This document shows positions 8,442 through 63,938 of a stretch of DNA of 64,000 bases, piece by piece; position 1 is the first letter of the stretch; the number at the start of each line of letters is the position of its first letter. Below the pieces are notes generated by a model that saw nothing but the letters and a program-made list of their open reading frames with translations, was not told the DNA's origin and did not search any database. Both the position numbers and the translations under genes were made by a program. The DNA comes from Limnomonas spitsbergensis (taxonomy: Eukaryota > Chlorophyta > Chlorophyceae > Chlamydomonadales), in the NCBI GenBank assembly GCA_037349105.1, contig JAYJMM010000106.1, positions 2,170,001 through 2,234,000 of the forward strand. The letters are read 5' to 3'.

Positions 8442-8489
8442 TTAACCCTTCAGTCTGAGCCACCGTGCGTTGTCAGAAGCCACTGTCAC
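8442..8489 (-). CDS. Nudix gene exon 5, tentative terminal exon
   Basis: In phase with exon 4, after GTGGAG| the frame reads VTVASDNARWLRLKG and stops (TAA at 8444-8442). ASDNARWLRL resembles the SDxARW motif near the C-terminus of many Nudix proteins. The acceptor is weak and the protein would be short after this motif, so the real ending could differ. Confidence 0.4.
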   Translation of the reverse strand: MTVASDNARWLRLKG

Positions 8490-11400
8490 CTCCACAGAGA
8501 GTAAGAAAGAAAACTAGGTCCTGCATGGACGTGCGGGTTAAGGAAACAGTGCGGCCTGGGCCGAGGCCGCCTCACGTCCGCCACCACAATCAACTCCACA
8601 GAAAAAGAAAGAATCTAGGCCCCGCAGGGAGGTGAGTGTTAAGGAAACAGTGCGGCATGGGCCGAGGCCGCCTCACGTCAGCCACCACAATCAACTCCAC
8701 AGAAAAAGAAAGAAACTAGGCCCCGCAGGGAGGTGAGTGTTAAGGAAACAGTGCGACATGGGCCGAGGCCACCTCACGTCAGCAACCATGGTCGCCTCTG
8801 CAAAGAAGGAAATAAAACTATGCCCCGCAGGGCCCCCGCAGGGACATGAGGGTTAAGGAAACAGTGCGGCATGGGCCGAGGCCACCTCACGTCAGCCACC
8901 ATGGTCGCGTCCACAGAGTAAGAAAGAAGTTTAAGGAAAATTTGTTGCGCGGGCCGAGGCCGCCTCATGTCAGCCACCATGGCCGCGTCCACAGAGTAAG
9001 AAAGAAAACTAGGCCCCGCAGGGACATGAGGGTTAAGGAGACAGTGCGGCATGGGCCGAGGCTGCCTCATGTCAGCCACCACAGTCACTTCCACACATGT
9101 ATGGTTTGAGGGACTCCACAACCCTAAACCCAAAGCTACGGTACATCGTCAGCGCCCACGCCCAACTCCACGATGCAGTAGTGTCACTTGATCTGCCCGT
9201 CCTTTTGGCAGCTTGGGCGGTGAGGGTTCAGGGAACGGTCTTAGTCCCTTCACCCCGAACCCCATAAAACCTAAGACAGCGTTCACGTCCACGATGTAGT
9301 TGGTTTTGAGGGATTGAGTAGCAGTAGCACCACTTGCTCCGCCTATCCTCTTGGCAGAAATAGGGATGAGGGTTAAGGGAATGTCCTTTGCCCTTGACCT
9401 TTAGCGCCACATAACCCACAACAGCGTTCACCGCAAATATGCAGCACGGTAGTGCCACTTGATCCGACTGTCATTTTGGCAGCTTGGGAGTTAGTTGAGG
9501 GTTCAGGGTACTTCCTAGGCCCTTTACCCTTTATCCCTCAAAACCCACTAAGCGTTCACCTGAACGATGCAGTAATGCCACTTAATCCACACCCTCTTGG
9601 TAGCTTGGGGGTTCAGGGAATGATTGAAGCCCTTTGCCCTTAATCCCAAAACCCCACTACAGCGTTCACCTCAACGCTTCAGTCGTGCCACTTAATCTGC
9701 CCGACCTCGTGGCAGTGATAGGGATGAGGGTTCAAGAAACGTTCCTAAGGCCCTGAACCCTTAACCCCACAACTCCCACTAGTTCACCTGCAGGATGCAG
9801 TGTTGCCTCTTGATCCGCCCCTTCTTGGCAGCTTGGGGGGTGAGGGTGCTTCCCAGGCCCTGAAACCTCAAACCCCACATACCCCACAACAGAGTTCAGT
9901 TACACGATACAGTCGTGCCACTGGATCCGCCCGTCCTCCTCGCAGGTTGGGCGTTGAGGGTTCAGGGAATTCCTAGGCCCTAAAACCCGAACCCCTAAAA
10001 CCCTCTACAGCTTTCACCTCGGCAATCCAGTAGTGCCACTTGATTTGATCACTCTTGGAAGCCTGGAGGTTGAGGGATCAAGTAACTATTCTAGGCCCTT
10101 CACCTTAACCCCTCAAAACCCACTACAGCGCACACCTCCACGATGCAGTAGTGCCACTTGATGCGTCCGTCCTCTTGCTGGTTTTCCCGATGGATCGAAT
10201 CGGCCGCAGCAAAAGCCGTAGGACGGGACAGGTTTGAGCTCCAGAACTAAAAAAGGAAGCAGCAGCAACAGCAGCAGCAACAACATTTTCAACAAAAAGG
10301 GCGACAGAGGGCGTCTTGCATGGCCTGCAATTCATTTGCATGCAGACAAAAGAAGAGAAAGGCAGGCAGACGGGCTGGACTGAACATCCGCCTGCACGTG
10401 TTACGAAGATTGATACAAAGCTACAATTAGACGCCTGCTGGAAATAAAATCTGCTTGCACCTTTCACCCAGATTACTATTAAGCTAATATTAGCCACCGT
10501 ATTTCCCCTCCTAAACGCTAAACCATAAATCCTAAATCATTGACCACCGTATTTCCTCTCTTAAACCCTAAACCATTGGCCACATTTGGTACCCACATTT
10601 GGTACAGGAGTGTGCCCGTCTCCTTAACCCTCACCCACCAACCACTTAACCCACCTGCTGCTAGGGTGTGTCTGGTGAGCTCCTCAACCGCTCCCCCGCT
10701 CCCTTTTGGCGTACGGCCTGTTAATGCATTAATTCTGATACCCATCTCCTTAACCCTCACACCCCAAAGCACCACCCCCACCCCTGCTGAGGTGCGCCTG
10801 GTGAGCTTCCCAACTGCTTCCCCGCTCCCCTCAGATGTCCTGCCCATCATTCTAGTTAACCCTGCTCGTCTCCTTATCCCTCAACCCTCAACCACCAATT
10901 CGACCTGCAGCTGGGGTGTACCTGCTGAGCTGCCAACCACTTTCCGCTCCCTGTACTGCCCGGTGGACTGCTTGAAGACCATCTGCTTGCACCCAGATTC
11001 ATAAAAACTACCATTCAATGATACACCATCACGACCTGTCCCACCCCCTCCATACCAAAGCGTGAGGCCGCCCTGGGCCCCAAATTTAATTCTTGGTGGA
11101 GGACCGAGGCGGGCCTCGGGTGCCCAGAGGGCCCCTGAGCTAGGCCGATCTAGAGACGACCCTGGGCCGAAGCAGTCTTCCTGAATACGCAGAATGTGTT
11201 TTTATTATGATAAGAAACTATTCTTTCAAATCTAGCCCGGTCTAAGAAGGTCAATTCCCGACCCGGGCACCATTACATTGGCCACCGTGTTTTTCTCCAG
11301 TTAACCTAGAACCGCAACCCTTAACCCTCAATAACCAACCTCACCTGCAGCTGGGGTGCGCCTGGTGAGCTGTCAACCGCTCCCCCGGGTGCACTGCCTG

Positions 11401-14628: not shown

Positions 14629-14779
14629 ATGGCGATTCCTCAGCGCATGGGCTTCATCGGTGCGGGTCAGATGGCGGAGGCGCTGGCTCGTGGATTCATG
14701 AACAAGGGTATCATCACCGGCAGTCAGATCAGCTGCTCTGACCCCTTCCCGCCTCGCAATGAGCTCTTCAAGTCTTTCG
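14629..14779 (+). CDS. proC (P5CR): P5CR exon 1
   Basis: ATG to donor TTTCG|GTGAGT (phase 1). It encodes the NAD(P)H-binding GxGxxx motif. Confidence 0.95.
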
Positions 14780-17700
14780 GTGAGTGCTGGGCAGCGACGA
14801 CTGCGCCACGAGCGCAGGGGCGTGTCAGGGTGGGGGAGCCGGGGAGGAAAGTATACATGGCTCCCCACTCGTATGTAATGGTCCTTAAAACCTCCTTAGA
14901 CTGTGAAACAGCTGGCTCGATGCTATATCTCCCCCGGCCGTTCTTGGGGCGTAAAGCCAATACCTGTAAATGGGTGTGGGTTGGTGCCATATAAGTGTGG
15001 AGCCCACCCTCCCTTTTAGCCATCTAGACGTCCGTTGAGTTCTGAAGCATCGATAGCTAACCACCAATGCACTGTTACCTGCGCCCCTGTCCAGCTGGAC
15101 CTTTCGGCGAGCCCATGCCTCGCCTGTTGGCGCCGCTGCCATCATCCCCATGCAGCATGTTGGATTGGCATCTGCAAGATTTAAACAAATATTCTCATCT
15201 GCAAGATTCCAATGAAATATCCTCAGTGCACCCGCGTACCTGCAGCTCTGCTCCGTTAAACCTTCGGGATCTTTCCCATGCAGCTTGTGGCATGCCATGC
15301 GCATGCCCCAATGATGGATGTGCGTTTTAGAGCCCCCCCCCCCCCCTTGACACTCATGTCACGGTTTTCAGCCCCTTCAGGCGCCAACCCCTGACTCAAT
15401 ACCGATGTCGCGGTTTCAACTCCTCTCAGGTGCCCCCCCCAACTAATCACTGATGTTCTTTTCTGCCACCCATTCAAGTGCCCCCCCCACACACACACAC
15501 ACACACTCAACACCGATGTTGTTCTCTGCCCCCCCTTCAGGTGCAACGCCCTACGAATCTAACATTGATGTCGCCAACCACAGCGACGTCATCTTCATTT
15601 CAGTCAAGCCCCAGTACGTTTCAGTGGTGCTCAAGGAGCTGCGGCCGGTGCTTAAACCCAACCAGCTCATTGTCTCCATCGCGGCGGGCATCACAATAGA
15701 AACGTGAGAAAGGGGTGTAAGGGTTAGGGTTAGGCGGGTCAAGCCTCAGTAGGTTCCAGTGGCACACTAAAAACGTGTGAAATTAGTGTTGGGTCAGGGT
15801 CAAGCGGGGTTATGGTTAGGGTTGGGGTCAAGCGGGTCAAGCCCCAGTTAGTCCCGCCGGTGCTCCAAGAGCTGCAGTCTGCGCTACACAACCAGCTCAA
15901 GAAACTTCATTGGGTGTAAGGGTTAGGGTTAAGAGTTTTTTTCCCTGTGACTCAGCTTCATGTCAGCTGCGACCTGACCTCTGGTGGAAGGCTTCATTTG
16001 TGGCCAGCCATGCCGCTTTGGCCACCAGTCACAGGCAAGACTAGGTTTAGCCCCAACCAGTCCTTTGGCGGCTGCAGAGCGGCCTGCGTAAGGTGGGCTT
16101 ATTGCCGGAAAAAATATGCTGTTTAGGATTGAGGATTTACGGATGAGCCCCAGAAGGTCCCGGTGGTGTTTAAGGATCTGCACTTTGTGCCCAAGCCCAC
16201 CAAACTCGTTGTCTTAATTGCTGCTGGCATCGCTCAATGGGCGTGAGCGAGGTTGAGGGCAGTGCTTTTGTATAAGGCGAGTGGTGGCCATTGGCGACCA
16301 GTAGGCCGAGTCGGAAGGGAAGTCTGATTGGCGATTTCAGCCCAGCCATTCGCGGGAAGGAGCTGGCTCGCTGTAGTGCCCACCTCCACACTTTTCACAC
16401 CGCTGGCTCATAGGAAACCAAGTCTGGATTTTGAAATCAGAAACACAGGTTAAGGGTTTGGGTCAAGCCCCAGTCCATTTCATTGGTGCTCCCTCTGGAT
16501 GTGGAGGCCTGGCTCTCAATTGTATATATTTTGTGTGACTCAGCAGCATGTCAGCTACACTCTGGCTGCTGGCCGGACACCCGTTTGTGGCCAGAATTGC
16601 CGATGAGGTCATCTATTGCAGGCCTGACCAGTTTTCCCCCTAATTGGGCCTTTGACGGCCGCTGGGCGGCCTGCCAAAGTTGAACTTGTAGCAAAAAGAA
16701 GAAACACTGCTGGCCGTCCCTCTCGCATCGACCGGCTCGGCCACATGTCAGCTACACTCAGGCTGCTGGACATCCCTCTCGTATCGCCCCTGATCCCTTG
16801 CATGTGATTGCCCTTGCCTCTCAGGCTGTTAGATGGTGCAGGCCCGGAGGCACGTGTGATCTGCTTGATGACCAATCGCAACTCGTAGTTTGTGCCCTTC
16901 GTTTTTTCTTATTTGTTTCTTATTTGTTTCTTATTTGTTTCTTATTTGTTTCTTATTTGTGCCCTTGTGCCTTTTTTTGGCCCCCGATTTTTGGCCCCCT
17001 GGTACTCCTTTGCTTGCATTCCCTTTGCTGGCGTTTGAACGCGACAGGCCCGGATGAGCGTGTCATCTGTGGGACGCCCAATCACAATTTGTCATCCCCA
17101 GCCCTTTATAAGCAACGGATCTGTTACGGGTACTTATTTGCAAGCTCTTGTACTTATTTCCCTCTCGCTTTGCTAACTTTTGAAAGCGGCAGGTCTGGAT
17201 GCAAACATGATACGCGTGCTGCTTTATCACAATTTGTCATCCCACCTCTTCATTGGCACCGGATCTGTTATTTGTACTCTTTTGCTTGCATTCCCTGTCA
17301 ATTTGCTAACCTTTGAAAAGGACAGGCCCGGATGCGTACGTGATCCGTGTGTTGCTTTATCACAATTTGTAATGCCCAGCTGTTCATTTGTGAATTCCCT
17401 TTCGTTTTACAGGCTTTTGAAAGCGGCAGGCCCGGACGCACGAGTGATCCGCGTCATGCCCAACACGCCCTGCCTGGTGGGAGAGGTGGCCGCCGCCATG
17501 TGCCTTGGAGGCAAGGTGAGATCTAGATCTAGTGTGGCCATGCGTCTAGGAAGCAAGGTAAGATCTAGATATAGTATGGCCATGTGCCTCATGGACAGGG
17601 CAAGCTCTATATATGGGCAAGCCCAGTGCTTCAGAAGCAATGGCGGATCTGGTTCGGCCTTGTTCCTTGGGGGCAAGATGAGATCCAGATATGTGACGGC

Positions 17701-53500: not shown

Positions 53501-56500
53501 ACCGACCCAAAGTATCCCACCATACAGTAGATTTCATTTGTCTTCCCTCGGGTATAAAACAGCTATTCATTTTAATGCTGCCCTCATAGCCAATGATCGG
53601 CCAAAACTCTTAATATTTCTGGCTGGAAGCTGGCGTCAACAATTGATAAGTAGTAGATGCATGGATCCCTCAACCCAAAACAACGTTATTTATGAGGGAA
53701 GGCAAAGCAAATTTACTGGTACTGAAAAGCCCAAGATATTTACTGGTACTGATAAGATATTTACTGGTACTGACCAGATATTTACTGGTACTGATAAGAT
53801 ATTAACTGAAAAGCCCAAGATATTTACTGGTACTGATAAGATATTTACTGGTACTGACCAGATATTTACTGGTACTGATAAGATATTTACTGAAAAGCCC
53901 AAGATATTAACTGGTACTGATAAGATATTTACTGGTACTGACCAGATATTTACTGGTACTGACCAGATATTTACTGGTACTGATAAGATATTTACTGAAA
54001 AGCCCAAGCTATTTACTGGTACTGACCAGATATTTACTGAAAAGCCCAAGATATTTACTGGTACTGATACGATATTTACTGAAAAGCCCAAGATATTTAC
54101 TGGTACTGATAAGATATTTACTGAAAAGCCCAAGATATTTTCTGGTACTGGTACGATATTTACGGGTACTGATAAGATATTTACTGGTAATGACCAGATA
54201 TTTACTGGTACTGATAAGATATTTACTGAAAAGCCCAAGATATTTTCTGGTACTGATACGATATTTACGGGTACTGACCAGATATTTACTGGTACTGACC
54301 AGATATTTACTGAAAAGCCCAAGATATGTACTGGTACTGATAAGATATTTACTGAAAAGCCCAAGATATTTACTGGTACTGACCAGATATTTACTGAAAA
54401 GCCCAAGATATTTACTGGTACTGATAAGATATTTACTGGTACTGATAAGATATTTACTGGTACTGACCAGATATTTACTGGTACTGATAAGATATTTACT
54501 GGTACTGACCAGATATTTACTGGTACTGACCAGATATTTACTGGTAAAGAAGAGCCCAAGATATGGTGGTACCCACCATACCCATCAACCCTCAACAGCC
54601 CACAGTGCAGCCAGAAAGTCCATCAGGCCGTAAGGCTATATTAAAATGCAAGCATGTGTGCTGCTGAGCTGTCCTCATCACACCGGATGCTGTCAATTAG
54701 GAATACTAAAATACAGCACGTTTTAAATTAAACCCTAAATCCTTAACCCTAGCCCACCCACCCACAGGGGCACGCGTGCGTGGTCCCGCTTTTGCTAAAC
54801 CAAGCAAATAAGGAATACCAAACCCTACTCGTTAACCCCCCCCCCCCCCCCCATAGGAGCAGGAGGGTATGGTCACACAGCCACTACTGCTTCTGCTGCC
54901 AATAAGGATACTGGACCCTAATCAAGAAACCCTAAACCCTAACTTCACAGGCGCACGCGGGTGTGGTTACGCTTCTTCTAAGCCGCGGTGCCAACGCCAA
55001 CCACAGCACCAACACCGGCCACGGCCCGCTGCATCTTTATACTGGACCCTAATCATGAAACCCTTAACCCTAATTATGAAACCCTGGACATTAAACCAAA
55101 ACCTCACAGGCGCACGCGGGCGTGGTTACGCTCCTGCTGAGCTGCGGTGCCAGCGCCAACCACAGCACCAACACCGGCCACCGCCCGCTGCATCTTGCCG
55201 CCATGTGCGGCAGCGAGACCGTCTGCGGGCTGCTGCTCGGCTCCGGAGCCAAACTGTGGTCCAAGACCCACTCCATGGCCACCGCACTGCACATCGCGGC
55301 CTCCAAGGGCCTGCCCTCACTGGTGGAGATTCTAATGAAGGCGGACGGCAGTCTCGGCAAGAGTAGTGGCAAGGGTGGCGGCGGTGGCGGAAACGATGGA
55401 GGCTTGCTCGAGGCAGCTGGTGCTGCTTCATTCGGGGCAAAGCTGTCCTCCTCCGAGGAGGATGCCGCGAAGAGCGCCGCCGGCGCCAGTGCCGTGAATG
55501 GCGCTGCTGGCACCAGTGCTGTGAATGACGGTGTTGCTGCAGATTCCGCCAGGGGCAGTGTCGGCACCTTCAGCCGCAAAATTATTGTGAAGGACAACGT
55601 GGGCGTCAACACGCGGGCGCAAAAGGGCCGGACGCCTCTTCATTGCGCCGCGATTGCAGGCGACCTGCCCACTGCACAGGTCTGGCCTGGCTGGGTAGTT
55701 ATTAAACTAAATAGTGAATAATGCAAGCGCCGTATCGTACCATATCTGGCCTGGCTGGGTAGTTACTTAAGTATTCAGTTCGTGGTTTAATGGTACATGT
55801 GGATCTTAACTATTTAGTAAAATTTACATGTGTCTCTTAGCGATTTAGTTCATGGTGCATGCGCCGTATCGTACCATATGGGGCCTGGCTGTGTAGGTAT
55901 TCAGTTAAGAGACACACGTACCCTCACCGGTATCGTACCGTGCCCCCTTCATTATGCTGGCCACACCATGCACCGCGATTGCGAGAGACCCGCCCACTGC
56001 ACAGGTCAGGCCTGGCTGGGTAGTTATCAAATTATTGAGTACATGGCGCATGGCGCATGGTGCATGGTGCATGGAGAGTTCATGGTGCATGTGTCTCTGA
56101 ACTATTTAGTGAATAGTACATGCGCCGTATCGTACCACATTGGGCCTGGCTGTGTAAGTATTCAGTCAAGAGACACACGTACCCTCACCGGCATGGTGCC
56201 GTGCTCCCTGCATTATATGCTAAACCATGCATGTATCATACAGGGCCTGGCTGTGTAGTTGTGAGATATTTGGCCATTTATTGGTATCTTTGCATCCCCG
56301 GTGGGCTCAGTGGTACGAAGCTGATTGGCAGGCTACCATGAGGATTTTCTGCCAGGCTTCATTAACTATGATGTTTACGGTAAAAACATTTTGCGCTTCG
56401 TTAAAAGTGCCCCCGCTTTATGTCGTGAGCGGGCATGAAGAGGGGATCCTACTTTGGGATATAATTGCATTGGGTTGAGCGGTGCCTGACACGCCTCCTG

Positions 56501-59500
56501 CTTTGGCGGCGTGCGTAGTCTTTCTCTCTTTCCGTATGCTTTGCATTATACTGGCGCCATACCATGAGCCGTATCGTACCACATGCTGATACTGTACCAT
56601 TCCATGCCATCCTCTGATCCTTATCCTGCCCTTTGATGATCCCCTCAACCCTGAACCCTAAACCCTACACCCTCATCCTCCCCTCTGATGAACCCCTCGA
56701 AACTATATAATCTACACCCTCAACCTCTACTCTGCTGATCCCCTCTAAACCCTACACCCTACACCCTACACCTTTATCTCCCCTGTGATGGTCCCCTCTA
56801 AACATTTAACCCTACACCCTACACCCTACACCCTCATCCTCCCCTCTGATGATCCCATCTACACCCTACACCCTACACCCTACACCCTACACCCTCATCC
56901 TCCCCTCTGATGATCCCTTCTAAACCTTGCACCCTACACCCTACACCCTTATCTCCCATCTGGTGATCCCCTATAAACCCTACACCCCAGGGTAGTGACG
57001 CCGGGGCCGGCGCCGGGGAACATGGGCCGAAGGCCCATTTTTCCCGGCCATCTTGTGCCCTCCCTCCCCTCCCCTGCAAAATGGGGGTTTGGCCGACTCT
57101 GCCCCCGGCGTCAACCGGGGGGGGTCTAATATTTGCACGACTCTCTACGGCTAAATACATAATTGAAATGACGACTATTGACTCAGATAGCGATATGCAG
57201 ATTATGCTTGCCGCTGAAGTGATAACAGACCCCCCATCCGCGGGAGGACTGCATGCTCCATGCTGCCCAGCACATGCCCAGTCCGCGACGGACTTTGTGT
57301 TTTAGCTTGCCAACGCGGCCACTACTGGAACCTTAATACATTGCTGTGGATAGGTCTTGCAAAGGCGCTTCTTTTGATATGTGATATGTGACAAACATGC
57401 GAAGGTTCGGTTCCGATAAGCCACGCTTGCACAAACTTAAAAGCTTCGCAACATGACGCGGTGCGGAACATGTATCGCATGTTCCCACGGGTATTTCCAA
57501 GCGAGGACGGTCTCGTGCAAGCAACATACAAGCACATTCAACATTCAGAAAGGCGGACTAAGAAAGTCGTAAGAAAAAAATTGTAAACGAAAAGTGTGGG
57601 GGAAAATAGTCCACACCTGCCGGCCATTTTCAGACCCCCCGGCCAGCGCAGCCGGCCTAAGAAACATACCCAGCCCGGTAAAAACCGGCCATCTGGCTGA
57701 CCCCGGTCACTACCCTGCTACACCCTATACCCTACACCCTCATCCTCCTCTCTGATGATCCCCTCTACACCCTACACCCTACACCCTACACCCTATACCC
57801 TACTCCCCATACCCTCATCTCCCCTTTGATGATCCCCTGTAAACCCTCATCCCTATACCCTAAACCCTCATCTCCCCTCTGATGATGCCCTCTAAACCCT
57901 AAACCTTAAACAATACACCCTCATCCTTTCCTCTGATGATCTCCTCTACACCCTTAACCCTACACCCTAATCTCCAGCCCCTGCTCCTCCTCTGCCACAG
58001 GTCTTGATGATGTATGGCGCCGATCCCACCCTCCAAGATCACTATGACAAGAGACCTGACCAGCTGGCTCTGTCGTCAGCATCCGCCTCCGAATCAGCCG
58101 TCTCCAGCAGCAGCCCAGACAGCACGGCTCCCGAGGGTGCGGTCACCCAGGAGGGCCGGGAGGCACGAGATAAGGTGCGACTGAAGAAGGGGAGAAGAAA
58201 AGGGGACAGGATGGGACAGGGAGGGGACCAGGGGACGATAGGAGGGAGGAGAGGATTTCTCCCCTCTGTCGTCAGCAGCGCCTCGGAACCAGCCGTCGGC
58301 ATCTGAATCAGCAGTCTCCAGCAGTAGCCCAGAAGGCACGGCCCCTGAGGGCGCTGCAGCCCAAGAAGGCAGGGAGGCACGAGATAAGGTGCAGCTAAAA
58401 AGGGAAGAAGAAAAGGGGACAGGGCGGGACAGGGAGGGGACCAGGGGAACGATAGGAGGGAGGAAGGGCCTCATCCCCTCTGTCGTTAGCAGCAGCCTCT
58501 GAATCAGCAGTCTCAAACATCAGCCCAGAAGGCAAGGTTCCCTAGGGTGCTGCAGCCCAGGCAGGCAGGGAGGCACGAGATAAGGTGAGACCTTACAGAC
58601 ATGGTAGCTCGATACGGCGCGACACTGCATGAATTTGACAGGAGGAAATAAATCAAGTGCACATACATTGTACGCAAGACCCATATACCGGTACGGTTTA
58701 CGGTTTACGGAACCTGTATATTCGGTTTATGGGCCATATACAGCATACGGGACAATAAGATACGTCGGCTACGTCAAGGCGGGGAGGCTCCCAGCCACCG
58801 AATCCTCCCCCCGACGTAATTTGCCCCCCTTCCGGCCACGCCCACCCCCGGCAGGCCGTAGCCGACGTATCTTATTATCACATTATGATAATATGAAAAA
58901 GCCCCGTGCTGTCCAAATGGTCCACACTGCCGGCTATGCTCAGATCCCCTGGCCTTGGCCGGCCAAAATAAATCCCTAGGTTGGAAGAACGCCAAGGGGC
59001 CTGTCACTTAGGGGGTCGGACGAGTCCCCCAACTACCGCAGTAGACCCTTGGGATGGGGTCTTTCCCCGCGAAAAGTTTCACTGGCGTCCAGGACTTCGG
59101 GTCTTTCCCCGCGAAAAGTTTCACTGGCGTCCAGGACTTCAGCTCTTTTAAAAACAAAATGAAACTTCGCTTTTTTTTGCTGTCAAACTTTTTGTGCGGA
59201 AAGGCTCCGTTTCGGCCGACCCTCCTGTTTGGGGGGACTCGTCCAACCCCCCAAGTGGCAGGCCCCTTAGAACACCGGCCACTCGGCTGACCCCTGTGAC
59301 GTAAATAAGTTTTCGGGTAGTGTGCACTATGGATCTTATTCTGCGATCCAATTTTTGTTGCGCTATTTTTGCAGAGGTTGCGCAGCGGGCCACATATGCC
59401 CCCTCACACTTATTTTGCTTGTTTCTCCATAGTGACTGGGCAGATGGCCTCGTGCCTGCTCGCATTATGTGCTGCTCTGTTGTATTTGCTCATACCCTGA

Positions 59501-62500
59501 ATCCCTAAACCATAACCTTATGCCAATTAGTGTGCACTATTTGTTGGGCCCATGTGGCCCTGTTGCACTATTTGTTGGGCCCATGTGGCCCTGTTGCACT
59601 ATTTGTTGGGCCCATGTGGCCCTGTTGCACTATTTGTTGGGCCCATGTGGCCCTGTTGCACTATTTGTTGGGCCCATGTGGCCCTGTTGCACTATTTGTT
59701 GGGCCCATGTGGCCCTGTTGCACTATTTGTTGGGCCCATGTGGCCCTGTTGCACTATTTGTTGGGCCCATGTGGCCCTGTTGCACTATTTGTTGGGCCCA
59801 TGTGGCCCTGTTGCACTATTTGTTGGGCCCATGTGGCCCTGTTGCACTATTTGTTGGGCCCATGTGGCCCTGTTGCACTATTTGTTGGGCCCATGTGGCC
59901 CTGTTGCACTATTTGTTGGGCCCATGTGGCCCTGTTGCACTATTTGTTGGGCCCATGTGGCCCTGTTGCACTATTTGTTGGGCCCATGTGGCCCTGTTGC
60001 ACTATTTGTTGGGCCCATGTGGCCCTGTTGCACTATTTGTTGGGCCCATGTGGCCCTGTTGCACCATGTTTATTTCGCCATGTGGCCATTCTTGTTGCGA
60101 TGTTGTTGCAGTGCTTGAGCAGCGGGGTCTTATGCCCCCATGCTCCTTTCTGTTGCTCTGGTTTTGTAGCGCCCGTGCAGCGGTCTGTCATGTTTGGTAG
60201 CCTATTTGTGTTGCCCTGTCTTTGCTGCGCCTGGTCTGTGGACCCTCATGCCCGCTAGCCCATTTGTGTTGCTCTGTATTCCTGCGTCTGGGCAGTGGGC
60301 ATTGTATTCTACATGTTTGGGCAAGCGGGCCGGAGGGCCCACCGCTCAAACACAAGAAAGCAAGGCAACACAAATGGGGTACGTTAGCAAGCCATATAGA
60401 AGATTTTGCATTTTTTATATTTGGTGCCAGAATGCCGCCGCTCCGGTGCTCCGCGCAGGTTTTTATATTTGGTGCTGGTGCGCCGGTGCTCCGCGCAGGT
60501 GCTCCTGTGCTCCGCGCCGGTTTTTATATCTGGCGCCGGAATGCCGGTGCTACAGGTGCTCCGCGCATCTCCCAAAATAGTTGTTACTTACCTCGTTAAT
60601 TACCGGTATTATTCTGTCGCGCACCACTCGGCACACCTCAAAAATCAATTCATTAAACGTCAATTAGTCAAACCGGTTTATGGTGTAATTACTTGTCTGC
60701 CTGTTTGCGGTGCCTGGCCCTTGTAAAAACAAGTGTTGGGTAGATGCACTGACCCACTGACGGTTTGAACAACATAAACAACATCATTTCCCAAGCCACG
60801 GCAGCCATGTCCCATGCCATGGCCAATGGGCGGCTTTCTTAATTCATGCACTTCATTGCGTGTTTACTTATCTATTAATGTATTCATTTCCCAAGCTCCC
60901 AACGACTCGCATTTCAGGAGCTGAGCGAAAGCATGGTCCGGGCCCAGCACGTGGCCACATTCCTGGAGAGCATGTCGGTGGGCGTGGTGGCTGCGGCGGC
61001 TCACGGCGACGCCTGGAAGATCGACGACTTGGTCGATTCAGGAGCAGTTTGCAACGGCATGGACTGGCAGGGGTACACTGCGCTGGGACGAGCGGCCGAG
61101 GGGGGCTTTTTCGAGGTGGGATGGGTGACAAGGAGGGGTATTATTTAATTTTTTTCCTTGGGATTCAGATATATGTATGAATGCTTGAGCGGCCAGGCGG
61201 ATGGTTATGGATCCTTGGACGACCAAGGGAGGTGAGATGGCTGCCAGGAGGGGTACAGGTCTTTGTGCAGCCAAGGGAGGTGGGATGGCTGCCAGGAGGG
61301 GTACTAGTCTTTGTGCAACCAGGGGAGGCGTGATGGCTGCCAGGAGGGGTACGGGTCTTTGTGCTACGAGGGGAGGTGGGATGGCTGCCAGGAGGGGTAC
61401 AAGTCTTTGTGCTACGAGGGGAGGTGGGATGGCTGCCAGGAGGGGTACAGGTCTTTGTGCAACCAGGGGAGGTGGGATGGCTGCCAGGAGGGGTACGGGT
61501 CTTTGTGCTACGAGGGGAGGTGGGATGGCTGCCAGGAGGGGTACGGGTCTTTGTGCAGCCAAGGGAGGTGGGATGGCTGCCAGGAGGGGTACAGTTCCTT
61601 GTGCAACCAGGGGAGGTGTGATGGCTGCTAAGAGGGGTACAGGTCCTTTAATAACCAAGGACCACCCTTGTGCGACCAGGGGAGGTGTGATGGCTGCTAA
61701 GAGGGGTACAGGTCCTTTAATAACCAAGGACCACCCTTGTACAACCAGGGGAGGTGTGATGGCTGCTAAGAGGGGTACGGGTCCTTTAATAACCAAGGAC
61801 CACCCTTGTGCGACCAGGGGAGGTGTGATGGCTGCTAAGAGGGGTACAGGTCCTTTAATAGCCAAGGACCACCCTTGTGCAACCAGGGGAGGTGTGATGG
61901 CTGCTAAGAGGGGTACGGGTCCTTTAATAGCCAAGGACCACCCTTGTGCAACCAGGGGAGGTGTGATGGCTGCTAAGAGGGGTACGGGTCCTTTAATAAC
62001 CAAGGACCACCCTTGTGCGACCAGGGGAGGTGTGATGGCTGCTAAGAGGGGTACAGGTCCTTTAATAACCAAGGACCACCCTTGTGCGACCAGGGGAGGT
62101 GTGATGGCTGCTAAGAGGGGTACAGGTCCTTTAATAACCAAGGACCACCCTTGTGCGACCAGGGGAGGTGTGATGGCTGCTAAGAGGGGTACAGGTCCTT
62201 TAATAACCAAGGACCACCCTTGTGCGACCAGGGGAGGTGTGATGGCTGCTAAGAGGGGTACGGGTCCTTTAATAACCAAGGACCACCCTTGTGCGACCAG
62301 GGGAGGTGTGATGGCTGCTAAGAGGGTACGGGTCCTTTAATAGCCAAGGACCACCCTTGTGCGACCAGGGGAGGCGTGATGGCTGCTAAGAGGGGTACAG
62401 GTCCTTTAATAACCAAGGACCACCCTTGTGCGACCAGGGGAGGTGTGATGGCTGCTAAGAGGGGTACGGGTCCTTTAATAACCAAGGACCACCCTTGTGC

Positions 62501-63938
62501 GACCAGGGGAGGTGTGATGGCTGCTAAGAGGGGTACAGGTCCTTTAATAACCAAGGACCACCCTTGTGCAACCAGGGGAGGTGTGATGGCTGCTAAGAGG
62601 GGTACAGGTCCTTTAATAACCAAGGACCACCCTTGTGCAACCAGGGGAGGTGTGATGGCTGCTAAGAGGGGTACAGGTCCTTTAATAGCCAAGGACCACC
62701 CTTGTGCGACCAGGGGAGGTGTGATGGCTGCTAAGAGGGGTACAGGTCCTTTAATAACCAAGGACCACCCTTGTGCAACCATGGGAGGTGTGATGGCTGC
62801 TAAGAGGGGTACGGGTCCTTTAATAACCAAGGACCACCCTTGTGCGACCAGGGGAGGTGTGATGGCTGCTAAGAGGGGTACAGGTCCTTTAATAGCCAAG
62901 GACCACCCTTGTGCGACCAGGGGAGGTGTGATGGCTGCTAAGAGGGGTACAGGTCCTTTAATAACCAAGGACCACCCTTGTGCAACCAGGGGAGGTGTGA
63001 TGGCTGCTAAGAGGGGTACAGGTCCTTTAATAACCAAGGACCACCCTTGTGCGACCAGGTGACATTCAATTATATAAATAAATACACAAAGTATTTATGT
63101 TCCATCTGACAGATCCCCGTCTGGAATCGCGTAAGGCACCAAGGGGCCTGTCACTTAGGGAGGCGGATGAGTCCCCAAAAACAAGGGTTTTCGGCCGGGA
63201 CGGAGCCTTTACCCGTGGAAAGTTCGACAGTAAAAATAGCAAAGTTCACTTTCGTATGAAAAAGCTTATGTCCTGGACGCCAGTAAGACCTTTCGCGGGG
63301 AAAGACCACATCCCTGCGATCGACTGCCGTTGTCGTGGGACTCGTCCGACCCCCTTAGTGACAGGCCCCCCCTTAGTGCACCACCGTCACTGGCACTCAG
63401 TAATTAATGACGGGAGTCGTGGCCCATGCTTCGGCCAAAATGGGCAGCTGCCTTAATCCACACAATTGCTTGCGTATACATTTTTTAAAATATAATAATT
63501 AATTAAATCCAGCGGTATATTTTTTTGCAAACACCTGTCCCATGCATCACATTCCTAACTGCTCCAAAATTCCACACTCAATCAAACCCTCTTTCCCTTT
63601 TTACCGGGTCGACCATACACCCTAAACCCTCTTTCCCTTTTTACCAGGTCAACCATAAACCTTAAACCCTTTCCCCTTTTTCTTTTGCAGTGGGTGGGTG
63701 CAATTGGCGGAGCTGATGATCCGAAAATTCCACACTCAAGAAAAACCTAAACCCTAAATTCCACACTCAATAAACACTCTTTCCCTTTTTCTTTTGCCGA
63801 TGTTGTGCAGCTGGCGGAGCTGCTGATCCGAAAGTACGGCTGCAATCCGAATCAAGTCGATGCCAAAGGACGGACCCCGTTGATGCTAGCTGCGGCCGGA
63901 GGCCGCATCGACTTTGTCCTCATGATGCAACGACACGA
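26111..63938 (+). CDS. Giant ankyrin-repeat protein gene, 18 visible exons, incomplete 3' end
   Basis: Eighteen exons join at GT-AG sites with matching phases at every junction, giving about 2,117 residues over 37.8 kb. Ankyrin signatures recur throughout: GRTPLHVAA, GETLLHLAAKSGNADI, GNSPLHCAAQRGH, GRTALHHAL, GRTPLHMAVSFGHIPI, GMTALHYAV, RTALHEAAEKGHPEVLAML, STPLHLAAAAGHLEV and GRTPLMLAAAGGRIDFV. I count well over 20 repeats. Non-repeat inserts include an Ala-rich run (residues about 75-110), an acidic Glu/Asp/Ser segment in exon 8 and a Gly/Ser linker in exon 15. No membrane segment, kinase or channel domain is visible, so a protein-binding scaffold is the best guess. The start is uncertain and the gene runs off the right edge. 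Introns make up about 83% and consist mainly of tandem repeats and small transposons. Confidence 0.88.
26680..26760 (+). repeat. 20-bp tandem repeat in ankyrin intron 1
   Basis: Four copies of CTCAGGGTTTGCTCCCAAGG, inside a fragment of the dispersed GCAGGCCGGTC family. Confidence 0.85.
26984..27112 (+). repeat. 7-bp tandem repeat GACCTGA
   Basis: About 18 perfect copies of GACCTGA end 35 bp before exon 2. The true acceptor region (GCGACCTGCAG) contains GACCTG, so the array may have arisen from the acceptor-side sequence. Confidence 0.92.
27147..27294 (+). CDS. Ankyrin gene exon 2
   Basis: Acceptor GACCTGCAG|GCTCTG, donor GTGCG|GTGAGT (phase 1). It encodes ALLEAGASVDAKDALGRTPL and HVAAATNQAVGVLEEL. 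Donor-side echoes lie at about 27330-27380 and 27845-27880. Confidence 0.9.
28134..28338 (+). CDS. Ankyrin gene exon 3
   Basis: Acceptor GACCCTGCAG|GAAAGT, donor GAACTT|GTGAGC (phase 2). It encodes KSPLHAACATGAMEAARQLL and MMGADPLELDSQGNLPAHL. Confidence 0.9.
29369..31001 (+). CDS. Ankyrin gene exon 4, largest exon
   Basis: 1,633 bp, acceptor AATCTACAG|GCACGG, donor ATGAAG|GTGTGT (phase 0). About ten ankyrin units are visible, including GETLLHLAAKSGNADILARL, GNSPLHCAAQRGHVQQM and GWLPLHAAAQRGNSAMVQLL, with a non-repeat stretch near the middle (QAWDALECTAEELAAKYYHG). Confidence 0.95.
31054..31912 (+). repeat. 17-bp satellite CCCCAGTACCCTGGTAA
   Basis: About 50 copies with A/G variants at two sites, directly after exon 4 in intron 4. 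The unit contains a TACC..GGTA dyad. It gives Gly/Tyr/Trp minus-strand frames (artefacts). Confidence 0.97.
32195..32720 (+). repeat. Acceptor-side echoes of ankyrin exon 5
   Basis: Copies near 32408 (GTGGCCGTCGCAGCTGGGAA), 32563 (GCATTGCAGTGCTGGCAGTG, CTCAGAGGTGGGCGGGGTAC) and 32675 (TCTCTGAGGTCGGTGGGGTA) repeat the exon 5 start. TTCATGCAGGCA at 32197 and 32340 may be older remnants. Each is followed by CCCTAACC-type filler. Confidence 0.88.
32888..33168 (+). CDS. Ankyrin gene exon 5
   Basis: Acceptor TTTCATCCAG|TCGGCC, donor GTCTGCAG|GTACTT (phase 2). It encodes AVAAGNIAVLALLSEVGGV, an Ala/Ser linker and a repeat ending CPLHLVCR. Confidence 0.88.
33955..34110. mobile_element. Dispersed repeat, GCAGGCCGGTCCAAGTTTGG family
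   Basis: Blocks with GTCAGCTNCACTC, GCNGGCCGG, GTTTGGTCCCAATTTGG and GACGGCTGCTGGGCAGCCTG recur at about 15950-16115, 16535-16690, 28600-28780 (reversed), 39790-40040 (reversed) and 52325-52536 (reversed). The last is bounded by inverted ends, so this is probably a MITE family. Confidence 0.65.
34241..34370 (+). CDS. Ankyrin gene exon 6
   Basis: Acceptor GACCCCCCAG|GCGTAA, donor CCAATT|GTGAGG (phase 0). It encodes LISSGASVDSLDAQGRTPLH and MAVSFGHIPI. The donor-proximal intron expands GTTGCATGGTG in tandem. Confidence 0.9.
34674..35729 (+). CDS. Ankyrin gene exon 7
   Basis: 1,056 bp, acceptor ACTCCTCGCAG|GTGGTG, donor CCCCAG|GTGTGA (phase 0). Repeats at both ends (LLGHGASLNMQDCRGDTALM; FLKHEADVNYRTPEGMTALH) flank an Ala/Pro/Lys-rich spacer with PKPKPKPPQLRF. 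Telomere-type repeats begin within 30 bp of the donor. Confidence 0.92.
35749..35845 (+). repeat. Interstitial CCCTAAA telomere-type repeats
   Basis: Six perfect CCCTAAA units (from about 35757) with flanking variants (CCCTTAA, CCCTGAA). Shorter runs occur in almost every intron of all three genes, for example 28480-28500 and 50905-50940. Variant units far outnumber perfect ones, so these are not a chromosome end. Confidence 0.9.
36110..36625 (+). repeat. Tandem repeat, CCAGCTCATCCAACTCATGC type
   Basis: Units of about 39-60 bp built from CCAGCTCATCAAGCCAGCTC, ATCCAACTCATG and CCACTCATGC fill the intron just before exon 8. Frames through it are artefacts. Confidence 0.88.
36641..37005 (+). 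CDS. Ankyrin gene exon 8
   Basis: Acceptor GCCCATGCAG|ATTGTC, donor GATCAG|GTGAGA (phase 2). It encodes LLAAGAHVDAIHQGIGLTPL, an acidic linker (EQESDESDDNGMDQDKRNER) and LLLLRAGADVMARSNKGSTA. A decayed copy of its 3' end lies at 37073-37135. Confidence 0.9.
37187..37366 (+). repeat. AACCC / CCACCC simple repeat
   Basis: A C-rich 5-bp array (CCCAA, CCCAC) forms the polypyrimidine tract region directly before exon 9; purine-rich on the other strand. Confidence 0.93.
37371..37545 (+). CDS. Ankyrin gene exon 9
   Basis: Acceptor CCATCTCAG|GAAACG, placed at the end of an AACCC array; donor CACACG|GTACTG (phase 0). It encodes FQSAAERGDIAFMKEIVSRK and CNARGCSALHT. Confidence 0.85.
37605..37815 (+). 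repeat. 21-bp tandem repeat, GTTATGCAGTACGTGTTA type
   Basis: About ten copies of a unit containing GTTATGCAGTACGTGTTA in intron 9. Confidence 0.92.
37900..38470 (+). repeat. 30-bp tandem repeat, GGGGCGGTACGGGGCTGTAC type
   Basis: About 19 copies including ACAGTGCGACATGGGGCGGT. The unit is a multiple of three, keeping long frames open on both strands; not a protein. Confidence 0.93.
38526..38780 (+). CDS. Ankyrin gene exon 10
   Basis: Acceptor ACACGGCCAG|GCATCG, donor ATCCAG|GTGGGC (phase 0). It encodes GRTDVVQWMIEHFGVEVDVN and RTALHEAAEKGHPEVLAMLL, the best consensus repeat in the protein. Confidence 0.92.
38870..39400 (+). repeat. Seven copies of an ~80-bp acceptor-like unit
   Basis: Each unit has TTACACAGGAAACGCAAGCC, GCCGTAGCCTAACAAGG, GATTAGGGCTTAGGGCC and CCTTAACCC. 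The CAG|GAAACGC edge looks like an acceptor with the start of an exon (Glu-Thr-Gln-Ala-Ala-Val-Ala then stop). The parent exon is not identifiable, so it may have died. Confidence 0.85.
39345..39455 (+). other. Possible small or decayed exon between exons 10 and 11
   Basis: One frame reads LLLLDGGCADVAMTRM just before a GTATGT donor-like site (about 39450), which is ankyrin-like. No acceptor gives a phase compatible with exons 10 and 11, and an upstream in-frame TAG is close. It may be a dead exon or part of an alternative form. Confidence 0.25.
40045..45094 (+). repeat. 27-bp satellite, about 187 copies, with higher-order structure
   Basis: The unit includes CACACATATTGGACATCAGC and CCTGCCC. 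Variation sits at a few positions (CCCCAC, CTCCAC, CACCAC, TTCACAC; ATATT or ATGTT). Variant order repeats at about 648 bp (40389 versus 41037) and about 2,039 bp (the CCTGCCTGCC insertions at about 41690 and 43729, 41990 and 44029). Because 27 is a multiple of three, five of six frames stay open for kilobases; these are not proteins. Confidence 0.97.
45622..45771 (+). CDS. Ankyrin gene exon 11
   Basis: Acceptor GATCCTCAG|GCTGCC, donor CTGCAG|GTGAGG (phase 0 both sides). It encodes LPNGDNVLHIAAMKGFSNLL. The preceding intron is 6.8 kb and holds the 27-bp satellite. Confidence 0.9.
45822..46018. mobile_element. MITE-like element, CAGTGCTGTGC family, copy 2
   Basis: Starts CAGTGCTGTGCCGA and ends GGCACAATTGCGCAATGC, with interior GCTGAGTTTCAGTCAC and GATAAGG..AATTTCTGAATTACGG as in 13121-13271. 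It lies 50 bp past exon 11. Confidence 0.65.
46320..46720 (+). repeat. Degenerate tandem repeat, about 110-170 bp
   Basis: Three blocks contain CACTGGCCTGCAGAGG(A/G)(A/C)C or CACTGGGCTGCAGG, then CCTGAAATGTATTGAATC and CATTCGAGGTTGGCCT. No gene is seen here. Confidence 0.75.
47285..47935 (+). repeat. 21-bp satellite CCCACAGCCCACCACTGCACCT-type
   Basis: About 30 units of AGCCCACCACTGCACCTCCCC, with CACACCTCCCC insertions in the 3' half. Open Pro/His/Thr-rich frames are artefacts. Confidence 0.95.
48035..48420 (+). repeat. Two acceptor-side echoes of ankyrin exon 12
   Basis: CAGGAGCTCATCAGCAAGCA at 48039 and CAGGAGCTCCTCAGCATACG at 48303 repeat the exon 12 junction at 48423. Both continue through GCGACTCCGCT-like coding sequence before diverging. 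The second fuses to a TGGCTTCGGCCCAGGCTGCG dispersed block. Confidence 0.93.
48426..48677 (+). CDS. Ankyrin gene exon 12
   Basis: Acceptor CCTGACCAG|GAGCTC, donor CTGCTG|GTGAGC (phase 0). It encodes ATPLWLAMCSDDVACVRLLM and SSPIMWAVTHQHTDLAMELL. Confidence 0.9.
49180..49342. mobile_element. MITE-like element, CAGTGCTGTGC family, copy 3
   Basis: Starts CCAGTGCTGCACC and ends AATCGCTGAGCACTG, interior as in the other two copies. Ends are imperfect inverted repeats (CAGTGCT). Confidence 0.68.
49550..49649 (+). repeat. Two acceptor-side echoes of ankyrin exon 13
   Basis: CTTGACTTGCAGCACACGGC (49546) and CTTGACTCGCAGCGTATGGC (49588) precede the true CTTGGCTCGCAGCATACGGC (49639). Each keeps an AG acceptor and CAGC, then switches to CTAAACCCCTAACCC filler. 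Confidence 0.92.
49650..49804 (+). CDS. Ankyrin gene exon 13
   Basis: Acceptor GGCTCGCAG|CATACG, donor CACGG|GTGAGC (phase 2). It encodes TAASMGHVEMIRLMLTRI and STPLHLAAAAGHLEVAGLLL. Confidence 0.92.
49920..50170. repeat. Purine-rich AGAGAGAGGCCTGAAAA repeats
   Basis: About ten units of about 24-28 bp with AGGCCTGAAAAGAGGGAAA. The same motif returns at 50750-50820. No coding content. Confidence 0.85.
51340..52008. mobile_element. 669-bp element with 20-bp terminal inverted repeats
   Basis: Left end TACCGTAAAATGTGATAGGG and right end CCCTATACCGTTTTACGGTA are inverted with three mismatches; inversion continues into TCCGCGCACCCC / GGGGTGCTCGGA. The inside is A/T-richer and has no transposase frame. 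Motifs GGTACCGTAAAAC and GTGCGCGGAGTA also recur inside. A target duplication is not clear. Confidence 0.72.
52325..52536. mobile_element. 212-bp MITE with CAGTGTTT ends
   Basis: CAGTGTTTCTTTTTCG at the left and CGAAAAATAAACACTG at the right are inverted with one mismatch. Inside, GTAGCTGACAT is tandemly repeated four times and GACCGGCCTACGGCTGGCGG links it to the dispersed family at 33955. CAGTG ends and small size fit a non-autonomous hAT-like element (inference). Confidence 0.75.
52828..52994 (+). repeat. Two acceptor-side echoes of ankyrin exon 14
   Basis: TTAATTGTGCTGGCGCACAG|GGCTTA (52824-52848) and TTAATTGTGCTAATGCACAG|GGCTTC (52898-52922) precede the true TTAATTGTGCTGGTGCACAG|GGCTGC. 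Only the first few exon bases are retained. Confidence 0.9.
52995..53055 (+). CDS. Ankyrin gene exon 14, 61 bp
   Basis: Acceptor GTGCACAG|GGCTGC, donor GCAAAG|GTAAAT. It encodes AAVDRRDKSAWTPLCYAAAK and exactly completes the repeat begun in exon 13. Confidence 0.85.
53056..53222 (+). repeat. Donor-proximal tandem repeat after exon 14
   Basis: Seven or eight units of about 22-24 bp, AAATGAATAGGGTATTTGTT type. The first overlaps the exon 14 donor (AAAG|GTAAATGAATAGGGTG), so the array seems to grow from the donor sequence. Confidence 0.82.
53705..54562 (+). repeat. 21-bp satellite with two interleaved unit types
   Basis: About 41 units, of type ATATTTACTGGTACTGATAA(G) or ATATTTACTGAAAAGCCCAA(G). 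The order of types is irregular but locally repeated. All-frame openness gives Phe-Thr-Gly-Thr-Asp-Lys-Ile peptides; artefact. Confidence 0.96.
54760..55108 (+). repeat. Three acceptor-side echoes of ankyrin exon 15
   Basis: Copies at about 54765 (CACAGGGGCACGCGTGCGTG), 54852 (CATAGGAGCAGGAGGGTATG) and 54945 (TCACAGGCGCACGCGGGTGT). The last retains some 85 coding bases including AACCACAGCACCAACACCGG and GCCCGCTGCATCTT. It has a TAA (CTTCTAAGC) where the real exon has a Ser codon. Confidence 0.93.
55110..55679 (+). CDS. Ankyrin gene exon 15
   Basis: Acceptor CCTCACAG|GCGCAC, donor GCACAG|GTCTGG (phase 0). It encodes HAGVVTLLLSCGASANHST, TALHIAASKGLPSLVEIL, a Gly/Ser/Ala linker (about 90 residues) and GRTPLHCAAIAGDLPTAQ. 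Confidence 0.92.
55680..56255 (+). repeat. Donor-side echoes of ankyrin exon 15
   Basis: At 55975-56040 CCGCGATTGCGAGAGACCCG, CCCACTGCACAGGTCAGGCC and TGGCTGGGTAGTTAT repeat the exon end plus donor. Intron-only pieces (CTGGCCTGGCTGGGTAGTTA; GCGCCGTATCGTACCA) recur around 55745, 55860, 56120 and 56240. Confidence 0.9.
56640..57990 (+). repeat. CCCTACA tandem repeats, split by an inserted element
   Basis: ACACCCTACACCCTCATC and CTCCCCTCTGATGATCCC blocks repeat on either side of the element at 56988-57717. CCCTACA is a one-base relative of the telomere-type CCCTAAA. Confidence 0.9.
56988..57717. mobile_element. 730-bp hAT-like non-autonomous transposon with 8-bp target duplication
   Basis: Ends CAGGGTAGTGAC and GTCACTACCCTG are perfect 12-bp inverted repeats, continued by CCGGGG-rich inner matches. 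The flanks are identical 8-mers CTACACCC (56980-56987 and 57718-57725). 8-bp duplications and CAGGG ends fit hAT elements. The target is itself a CTACACCC-type repeat, so the duplication could be coincidence. No transposase frame is seen inside. Confidence 0.82.
58001..58174 (+). CDS. Ankyrin gene exon 16
   Basis: Acceptor TGCCACAG|GTCTTG, donor GATAAG|GTGCGA (phase 0). It encodes VLMMYGADPTLQDHYDKRPD and a Ser/Glu-rich tail. The later echo at 58584 has a better donor (GTGAGA), so the exon end could vary. Confidence 0.8.
58175..58590 (+). repeat. Two donor-side echoes of ankyrin exon 16
   Basis: Units of about 205-215 bp repeat GTCGTCAGC..GCCTC..GAATCAGC, CAGCAG(C/T)AGCCCAGA, GGGAGGCACGAGATAAGGTG and part of the intron. 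The last copy (58584) has a GTGAGA donor better than the true GTGCGA. Only the first copy is in frame with the protein. Confidence 0.92.
58754..58876. mobile_element. 123-bp MITE with perfect 20-bp inverted ends
   Basis: AATAAGATACGTCGGCTACG at the left is exactly reverse-complementary to the last 20 bp. The interior is C/G-rich. The target duplication is not clear. Confidence 0.8.
58994..59268. mobile_element. 275-bp MITE, AAGGGGCCTGTCACTT family, copy 1
   Basis: AAGGGGCCTGTCACTTAGGG and the inverted end CAAGTGGCAGGCCCCTT, with GACGAGTCCCCC inside both ends, define inverted repeats of about 38 bp. Flanks AGAACGCC and AGAACACC match at 7 of 8 bases, fitting an 8-bp target duplication. GGTCTTTCCCCGCGAAAAGT is duplicated inside. 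Confidence 0.8.
59530..60066 (+). repeat. 31-bp satellite, 17 copies
   Basis: Seventeen almost identical units of TTGGGCCCATGTGGCCCTGT plus TGCACTATTTG. Near identity over more than 500 bp points to recent expansion. GGGCCCATGTGGCCC contains a dyad. Confidence 0.97.
60415..60570 (+). repeat. Degenerate repeat, GGTGCTCCGCGCAGG type
   Basis: Three or four units combining TTTTTATATTTGGTGCC, GAATGCCG and GGTGCTCCGCGCAGG. Followed by unannotatable DNA up to exon 17. Confidence 0.75.
60918..61115 (+). CDS. Ankyrin gene exon 17
   Basis: Acceptor GCATTTCAG|GAGCTG, donor TTCGAG|GTGGGA (phase 0). It encodes a helical stretch (SESMVRAQHVATFLESM) and GYTALGRAAEGGFFE. Confidence 0.88.
61116..61620 (+). 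repeat. 48-bp satellite starting at exon 17 donor
   Basis: About eight units with GGAGGTGGGATGGCTGCCAG and GAGGGGTAC. The exon 17 donor region reads GAGGTGGGATGGGTGACAAG then GAGGGGTA, closely matching the unit, so the array looks seeded from that splice site. GAGGTGGGAT-type donors recur in every unit. Confidence 0.9.
61621..63058 (+). repeat. 69-bp satellite, about 21 copies
   Basis: The unit is the 48-bp one plus 21 bp (CCTTTAATAACCAAGGACCAC region), with TGCCAGGAGG changed to TGCTAAGAGG. 69 is a multiple of three, so long frames stay open on both strands; not a protein. Confidence 0.95.
63141..63374. mobile_element. 234-bp MITE, AAGGGGCCTGTCACTT family, copy 2
   Basis: Starts AAGGGGCCTGTCACTTAGGG and ends TTAGTGACAGGCCCCCCCTT, with GATGAGTCCCC / GGGACTCGTCC inside. 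The interior is a reversed relative of copy 1 (shared CCTTTCGCGGGGAAAGACC, TGTCCTGGACGCCAGT). Flanks AAGGCACC and AGTGCACC match at 6 of 8 bases. Confidence 0.8.
63683..63810 (+). repeat. Acceptor-side echo of ankyrin exon 18
   Basis: At 63683-63730 TTTTTCTTTTGCAG is followed by a diverged edge, then TTGGCGGAGCTGATGATCCG, matching CTGGCGGAGCTGCTGATCCG of the exon. It then switches to AAATTCCACACTCAA filler. Confidence 0.92.
63811..63938 (+). CDS. Ankyrin gene exon 18, last visible
   Basis: Acceptor TTGTGCAG|CTGGCG, donor CACGA|GTACGT (phase 2). It encodes ELLIRKYGCNPNQVDAKGRT and PLMLAAAGGRIDFVLMMQRH. The protein must continue past the window. Confidence 0.88.

Follow-up and report, generated by a model that had tools for sequence, protein, structure and literature searches.

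Partial Copies of Exon Edges in the Introns of Limnomonas spitsbergensis as Probable By-Products of Pervasive Short Tandem Duplication

Genes and Repeats of the Window

The stretch of DNA analysed here, referred to below as the window, covers 64,000 nucleotides of the Limnomonas spitsbergensis genome (assembly GCA_037349105.1, contig JAYJMM010000106.1, positions 2,170,001 to 2,234,000). The pyrroline-5-carboxylate reductase (P5CR) gene lies on the plus strand (14629..20516), is given by an exact splice solution, and carries a P5CR_dimer Pfam match. Its seven exons (14629-14779, 15541-15703, 17413-17515, 17879-17932, 18892-19003, 19621-19755, and 20422-20516) are separated by introns that are all GT-AG, and the P5CR of Chlamydomonas eustigma showed 79% identity to the window protein when compared with a query that contained two typing slips. 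On the minus strand, a Nudix gene was modelled with three exons (11797-11869, 11345-11481, and 10136-10246). The match to Pfam PF00293 comprises residues 1-64 of the joined translation, i.e., the first two modelled exons; the third was placed solely by its open frame and splice sites, and the bounds of a presumed last exon (8440-8489, minus strand) were inferred by eye.

A long ankyrin-repeat gene with 15 modelled exons (ANK1 to ANK15) occupies 26319..63938 of the plus strand, several of its exon bounds being weak. Pfam backs four of these exons (ANK4, 8, 10, and 13), with a weak match for ANK8, and the ankyrin HMM was seeded with eight sequences, three of which were junk from unoriented loci. 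Nudix and ankyrin bounds without Pfam backing were chosen by open frame and splice score, and ANK5, 7, 9, and 12, which the HMM did not match, were selected visually among the open frames. No strong splice site stands behind the ends of ANK3, ANK6, ANK15, and the last Nudix exon, or behind the start of ANK5, and the acceptors of ANK1, 10, and 14 are weak.

Several other repeats were recorded in the window. A 27-bp minisatellite of about 186 units with 94% matches lies within an ankyrin intron (40060-45094; TRF), further large arrays were reported by TRF at 61597-63059, 31058-31911, and 24893-25519, and a 31-bp array of 17.2 units at 59533-60064 (TRF) shows 100% matches and is therefore probably recent. 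Palindrome-like TGACCGGGCCCGGTCA units cluster with mixed periods at 467-642 (TRF), and similar translated frames on opposite strands at 59008-59403 and 63082-63456, compared by eye, suggest a related repeat. Relative to the expectation from three shuffles of 60 kb, the telomere-like heptamer CCCTAAA is over-represented both in the window (35 vs. 4.3 expected) and in the sample of loci L009-L048 described below (54 vs. 15.0); the corresponding values for TTTAGGG are 7 vs. 3.2 and 54 vs. 12.0.

Echoes of Exon Edges in the Window

An earlier note on this DNA claimed that the introns around most exons hold decayed partial copies of the adjacent exon edge that span the splice junction. Such copies, referred to here as echoes, were sought with queries consisting of an exon edge plus 25 bp of intron, compared with the adjoining intron or flank of 26 exons at a score cut of at least 20. 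At least one echo was found on 20 of the 52 exon sides, with 51 copies altogether, whereas inverted (0/52) and shuffled (0/52) queries gave none and the top control score was 18.5, so the echoes are real. Copies holding at least 12 bp of exon occurred on 19 sides and at 16 of the 26 exons, counts that include the marginal, low-complexity ANK9. In a first pass over the P5CR exons, the listed copies scored 25-75, compared with 18.5 for the best inverted match, at most 15.5 for non-adjacent introns of the gene, and at most 16.5 for shuffles.

In the P5CR gene (plus strand), the 3′ edge of exon 2 has three copies (15836-15927, 16146-16252, and 16457-16491, with scores of 33, 39, and 25). Four copies of the 5′ edge of exon 3, made up of 47-54 exonic and 18-24 intronic bp apiece, lie at 16803..17355, and the nearest stands head-to-tail with the exon in a 104-bp unit. 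These four upstream copies agree with the earlier claim; on the downstream side, where about four had been counted, we found three copies of the 3′ edge (17541..17745, scores 21-31). The 5′ part of exon 5 recurs three times at 18540..18845, with 81, 94, and 81 bp of the 112-bp exon, the third copy being without the junction, and the last 66 bp of exon 6 together with the donor side recur at 19858..19946 with 82% identity. A 74-bp tandem array of 5.5 units (20034..20443; TRF and window scan) runs into exon 7, its last unit stopping 22 bp into the exon and its aligned span equalling the unit. It supplies the five upstream echoes that had been described, at a measured period of 74 bp and not at the spacing of 78 bp given before.

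The Nudix gene (minus strand) carries, according to the window scan, three copies of the 3′ edge of exon 11345-11481 at 10623..10974 and eight copies of the 3′ edge of exon 10136-10246 at 9159..10044, where TRF reported a period of 230 (9494-10041); eight is also the number of downstream copies claimed for a Nudix exon. Three upstream copies of the 5′ edge of the presumed last exon (scores 21.5-23; also TRF) fall, with the exon included, within 8440..9009, and TRF placed a 101-bp array at 8486-8901.

In the ankyrin gene (plus strand), the window scan yielded one copy of the 3′ edge of ANK2 (27147-27294) at 27329..27385. Copies of 5′ edges were found for ANK5 (about 32880-33168, its start being arbitrary and the edge presumed), with three at 32390..32709, for ANK12 (48426-48677), with two at 48015..48352, for ANK13 (49650-49804), with two at 49541..49609 that hold just 11-12 bp of exon each, and for ANK15 (from 63811), with one at 63677..63726. 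The last 62 bp of ANK8 (36641-37005) and the donor side recur in a 126-bp unit at 37070..37156 (TRF and scan). ANK14 (55110-55679) has two copies of its 5′ edge at 54760..55037, one of them 90% identical with 87 bp of exon, as well as a copy of its last 46 bp plus the donor side at 55960..56027. The ankyrin exons with echoes are ANK2, 5, 8, 9, 12, 13, 14, and 15 in the numbering of the present model, which could not be paired one by one with the exon numbers used before.

Echoes in a Sample of Conserved Genes

The genome sample comprised 40 loci from this genome that contain HSP70 or kinesin exons (L009-L048). Their 177 exon matches included 137 adjacent pairs, for which a splice search limited to GT donors gave 105 solutions, and 95 introns in 35 loci passed the score cut. 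Exon-only queries of 50 bp had a copy in the adjoining intron at 6/95 donor and 10/95 acceptor edges (12/95 introns), and inverted (0/95 and 0/95) and shuffled (0/570) queries had none. In the same test, edges from other loci matched in 1/950 and 3/950 comparisons, 4/1,900 in all, and exon middles had a copy in 1 of 29 cases. Junction-spanning queries, applied to introns of at least 120 bp, revealed copies at 33/188 sample edges (controls: one inverted, one shuffled) and at 22/46 window edges (one inverted, none shuffled). Given these two proportions, the echo pattern extends past the window, yet among these conserved genes it is found at a minority of edges, with the window being rich in it. 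The statement that most exons are affected fits the window and fails for the sample, by the exon-only count of introns as well as by the junction-spanning count of edges.

The sample is limited to two gene families, and its introns (median 366 bp over the 105 solutions) are shorter than the mean of 788 bp published for L. spitsbergensis (excerpted text of PMC11228838). The two families may stand for the whole genome.

Form and Decay of the Copies

Copies of 5′ edges lie upstream and copies of 3′ edges downstream of their exons, as had been described; wrong-side matches numbered 0/54 and 0/54 in the genome sample. The statement that complete exons are not copied was likewise confirmed, with a single weak exception among 54 sample exons and none among 20 window exons. 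Edges with junction-spanning copies numbered 27 in the sample and 21 in the window. Of these 48 edges, 27 have their nearest copy in head-to-tail arrangement, with an aligned span that covers at least 0.8 of the unit, and at the other 21 the layout is not cleanly tandem; the median distance of the nearest copy is 126 bp (quartiles 81 and 191 bp). The copies are direct, and inverted matches remain at the control level. In the window, echoes differ from the exon edge by 9-29%, except for one 24-bp match without exon.

The differences are not spread evenly over codons. In the 80 of 111 spanning copies with a known frame, a set that excludes Nudix and ankyrin copies, exon-echo mismatch was 0.148, 0.121, and 0.238 at codon positions 1, 2, and 3, and the third position had the higher mismatch in 27 and the lower in 7 of 35 arrays. 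This concentration at third positions is what would be expected of a constrained exon and an unconstrained, drifting echo. The P5CR echoes hold 42 silent codon differences and 77 amino acid changes; at these 77, the residue commoner among 80 of the 120 listed relatives stands in the exon 69 times and in the echo 6 times, with two ties, the ladder copies not being independent. Copies within a ladder share their history, and copy counts do not equal event counts. Identity was 0.827 on the intron side and 0.817 on the exon side, with 45 copies leaning one way and 46 the other. Intron-side identity is thus not lower than exon-side identity, contrary to the simplest clock, perhaps because local alignment trims the poor part of the intron. 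Among 18 near-perfect two-copy arrays, 8 gave negative microhomology values and therefore do not represent simple two-copy events, and the other 10 gave 0-18 bp. These 18 candidates give too small a set of young two-copy duplications with readable breakpoints for the mutational mechanism to be identified.

Comparisons of paralogues show arrays in one copy of a gene that are absent from the other. An intron of 180 bp in L022 measures 748 bp in its paralogue L023, which has seven extra 59-bp units where L022 has none; each consists of approximately the last 38 bp of the exon plus the donor position, with GT in the first two units and an altered dinucleotide in the later ones. L044 has eight extra, near-identical 89-bp units that each comprise 49 exonic bp and what looks like a GC donor, whereas the neighbouring paralogue L045 has no extra units and a GT donor at that edge. 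In these kinesin neighbours, the apparent GC donor of L044 lies at about 3511 and the GT donor of L045 at 3315 (gene orientation), and the edge is present nine times. This pair falls outside the count of 42 paralogous edges, because only GT donors were modelled; in that count, copies were present in both paralogues at 1 edge, in one only at 5, and in neither at 36.

Splice Junctions and the Background of Duplication

Local direct copies, scored on 50-bp segments, were found in the sample for 25.7% of 759 intron, 26.6% of 3,727 unannotated, and 6.0% of 521 exon segments, and in the window for 58.3% of 779 intron and 7.1% of 113 exon segments; window introns are richer in local duplication than sample introns (58% vs. 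26%). Matches elsewhere, determined for each segment against one random 3-kb piece of an unrelated locus, amounted to 0.5-1.2% for intron and unannotated segments and to 7.1% for sample exons, the latter because of paralogues. Inverted local matches reached 1.2-6.5% for intron and unannotated segments and 0-6.5% over all classes.

Splice junctions are no hotspot. Each real junction was matched with random points of the same intron (pseudo-junctions) in introns of at least 300 bp, those of the window being shorter than 3,000 bp; in the unmatched version, which also started at 300 bp, longer window introns had yielded no pseudo-junctions. At a depth of 25 bp, copies were found at 14/102 real junctions of the sample vs. 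a mean of 16.6 and at 11/38 of the window vs. 13.1. The respective values were 8/102 vs. 16.3 and 6/35 vs. 10.4 at 45 bp, 4/102 vs. 15.7 and 3/34 vs. 9.6 at 65 bp, and 0/87 vs. 11.6 and 1/25 vs. 6.8 at 95 bp, and a tighter score cut left the picture unchanged. A sliding profile over introns of at least 500 bp stayed at 0.30-0.40 from 300 bp on the intron side up to the junction and dropped to 0.05-0.10 at 60-100 bp on the exon side. In the same introns, 177 of 765 interior 50-bp segments had a local copy, compared with 16 of 190 exon edges. On the evidence of the matched depth series, the outer exon edge behaves like intron DNA with respect to duplication: the outer 50 bp of exons are duplicated about as often as introns, and deeper exon far less.

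The idea that exon edges are special is therefore not borne out by the junction profile, by the pseudo-junction tests, or by the comparison of edges with interiors. Copies are no more frequent at junctions than elsewhere in the intron, an outcome that the earlier note had named as refuting its idea, and the results favour the simpler alternative that the earlier note had itself offered, namely ubiquitous tandem duplication that becomes visible where an exon provides a reference. A mechanism that prefers exon edges, such as transcription- or splicing-coupled breakage or RNA-templated repair, could be suspected from the striking ladders at many window exons, from the majority of copies crossing the junction, and from values of 0.35-0.48 at 20-120 bp inside the acceptor vs. 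0.29-0.48 deeper (introns of at least 500 bp), a slight rise at best. We give it very little credence, since real junctions have no surplus over matched points of the same introns, edges are copied more rarely than intron interiors, and unannotated flanks are duplicated at a similar rate. The level profile and the pseudo-junction tests disfavour it.

Fate of the Copied Splice Sites

GT was kept in 42 of 49 copied donors and AG in 40 of 60 copied acceptors, with retention elsewhere in the copies of 0.66 for 389 other GT dinucleotides and of 0.67 for exon-side dinucleotides generally. Many copied sites are also strong: scores exceed the 5th percentile of true sites for 29 of the 44 donors and 24 of the 40 acceptors. 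Both the high retention of GT and the strength of the sites would suit functional echoes, whether as decoy splice sites under selection, as alternative exons, or as regulatory arrays. The raw surplus of retained donors is suggestive, but it is not significant once copies are clustered by edge: in identity-matched, edge-bootstrapped comparisons, the difference was +0.151 per copy for donors (CI -0.057 to 0.310) and +0.001 for acceptors (CI -0.125 to 0.135), and no purging of copied splice sites was detected by this approach among donors or acceptors. Clean unit lengths are not multiples of three in 17 of 27 cases, which is the level of chance. With the 77 amino acid vs. 42 silent codon changes in the P5CR echoes, and with arrays present in one paralogue and absent from the other, a functional role of the echoes appears very unlikely.

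Still less can be said for an assembly or polishing artefact, which the repeat-rich genome might invite but which is hardly credible for window echoes 9-29% diverged from the exon edge and for junction-spanning copies recurring at 27 sample and 21 window edges, in an assembly that the excerpted text of PMC11228838 describes as made from PacBio reads with an L50 of 32.9 kb, exceeding the array length. Mobile elements, introner-like or other, inserted with exon fragments are just as implausible, given that edges of other loci match in 4/1,900 comparisons, that matches of intron and unannotated segments in one random 3-kb piece of another locus stay at 0.5-1.2%, and that inverted matches are at the control level.

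Proposed Origin and Significance

Echoes are very probably by-products of pervasive short tandem duplication that acts without regard to splice sites and is filtered by selection. Non-coding DNA would undergo such duplication at a high rate, with units mostly of about 50-200 bp and arrays sometimes of 5-9, and replication slippage or a similar copying error may provide the mutational step. When a duplicated stretch straddles a junction, its extra copy would end up within the intron. Provided that splicing relies on the exon-proximal site, this copy would be spliced out at little cost. Duplications deeper in the exon would be removed by selection. The spare copy, presumably near-neutral, would then drift while the exon remains constrained. 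The persistence of duplications at exon edges is thus probably explained by the loss of the spare copy in splicing. The earlier proposal that introns grow by tandem duplication across exon edges, with the exon kept, is upheld in part by the codon asymmetry, the residue comparison in P5CR, the head-to-tail layout, and the paralogue arrays; its element of edge targeting is not.

More speculatively, the process might operate as a one-way ratchet, in which exon-edge duplications carry practically no cost, build up, and account for a measurable share of the intron lengthening in this lineage, a possibility that we regard as real but rather doubtful. The duplications would be free because splicing takes the exon-proximal site among many decoys, and the nine equivalent apparent GC donors of L044 would represent such near-identical decoys. 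If the ratchet were true, every echo would amount to a fossil open to dating, its counterpart in the exon being kept in place by selection.

For the preferred explanation, pervasive short tandem duplication filtered by selection, exon edges are constrained references that may be used to count, polarise, and date an otherwise hidden intron turnover. Arrays of identical or near-identical decoy splice sites offer a natural test of splice-site choice.

Comparison with Known Systems

No description of systematic exon-edge copies was found in searches of one open-access library, which does not prove that the pattern is undescribed, and the Haematococcus genome papers, in the excerpts available, contain nothing on such copies. 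In the modelled introns, echo units consist of an exon edge and the flanking sequence of an existing intron.

Minisatellite (VNTR) arrays are built of head-to-tail units of tens to hundreds of bp, and their copy number varies among relatives. Echo arrays share both properties, as their units are direct and head-to-tail and their copy number differs between paralogues. Unlike in minisatellites, the final unit enters a coding exon, so that selection preserves one unit, which can act as a reference. Tandem exon duplication, which leads to mutually exclusive exons, also copies exon sequence locally; unlike there, the copying of a complete exon with both splice sites is confined here to 1/54 sample and 0/20 window exons. 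Internal gene duplication, as Gao and Lynch reportedly described it in 2009, involves short exonic and intronic segments in tandem. The echoes resemble it in that the copied segment stays in the same gene, in the adjacent intron, and differ from it in that the segments cross existing junctions, form ladders of up to 8 copies, and enlarge existing introns.

It is established that segments are tandemly duplicated inside genes and that such events play a part in intron gain (excerpted text of PMC4974935, citing Rogers 1989, Hellsten 2011, and Gao and Lynch 2009). As in the potato RdRp case of 2011, as outlined there (PMC4974935), the duplicated segment takes in exon sequence together with splice signals; unlike in that case, an existing intron lengthens in our models and no new intron arises. 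Introners, in the excerpted account of PMC9860276, are copies of one element in many genes. The echoes share with them a lineage-specific gain of intron sequence but are local and not dispersed, with 0.5-1.2% of intron and unannotated segments matching one random 3-kb piece of another locus and with 4/1,900 matches to the edges of other loci. The echoes represent a known kind of event at high density, in which the selective filter mimics a process directed at exon edges.
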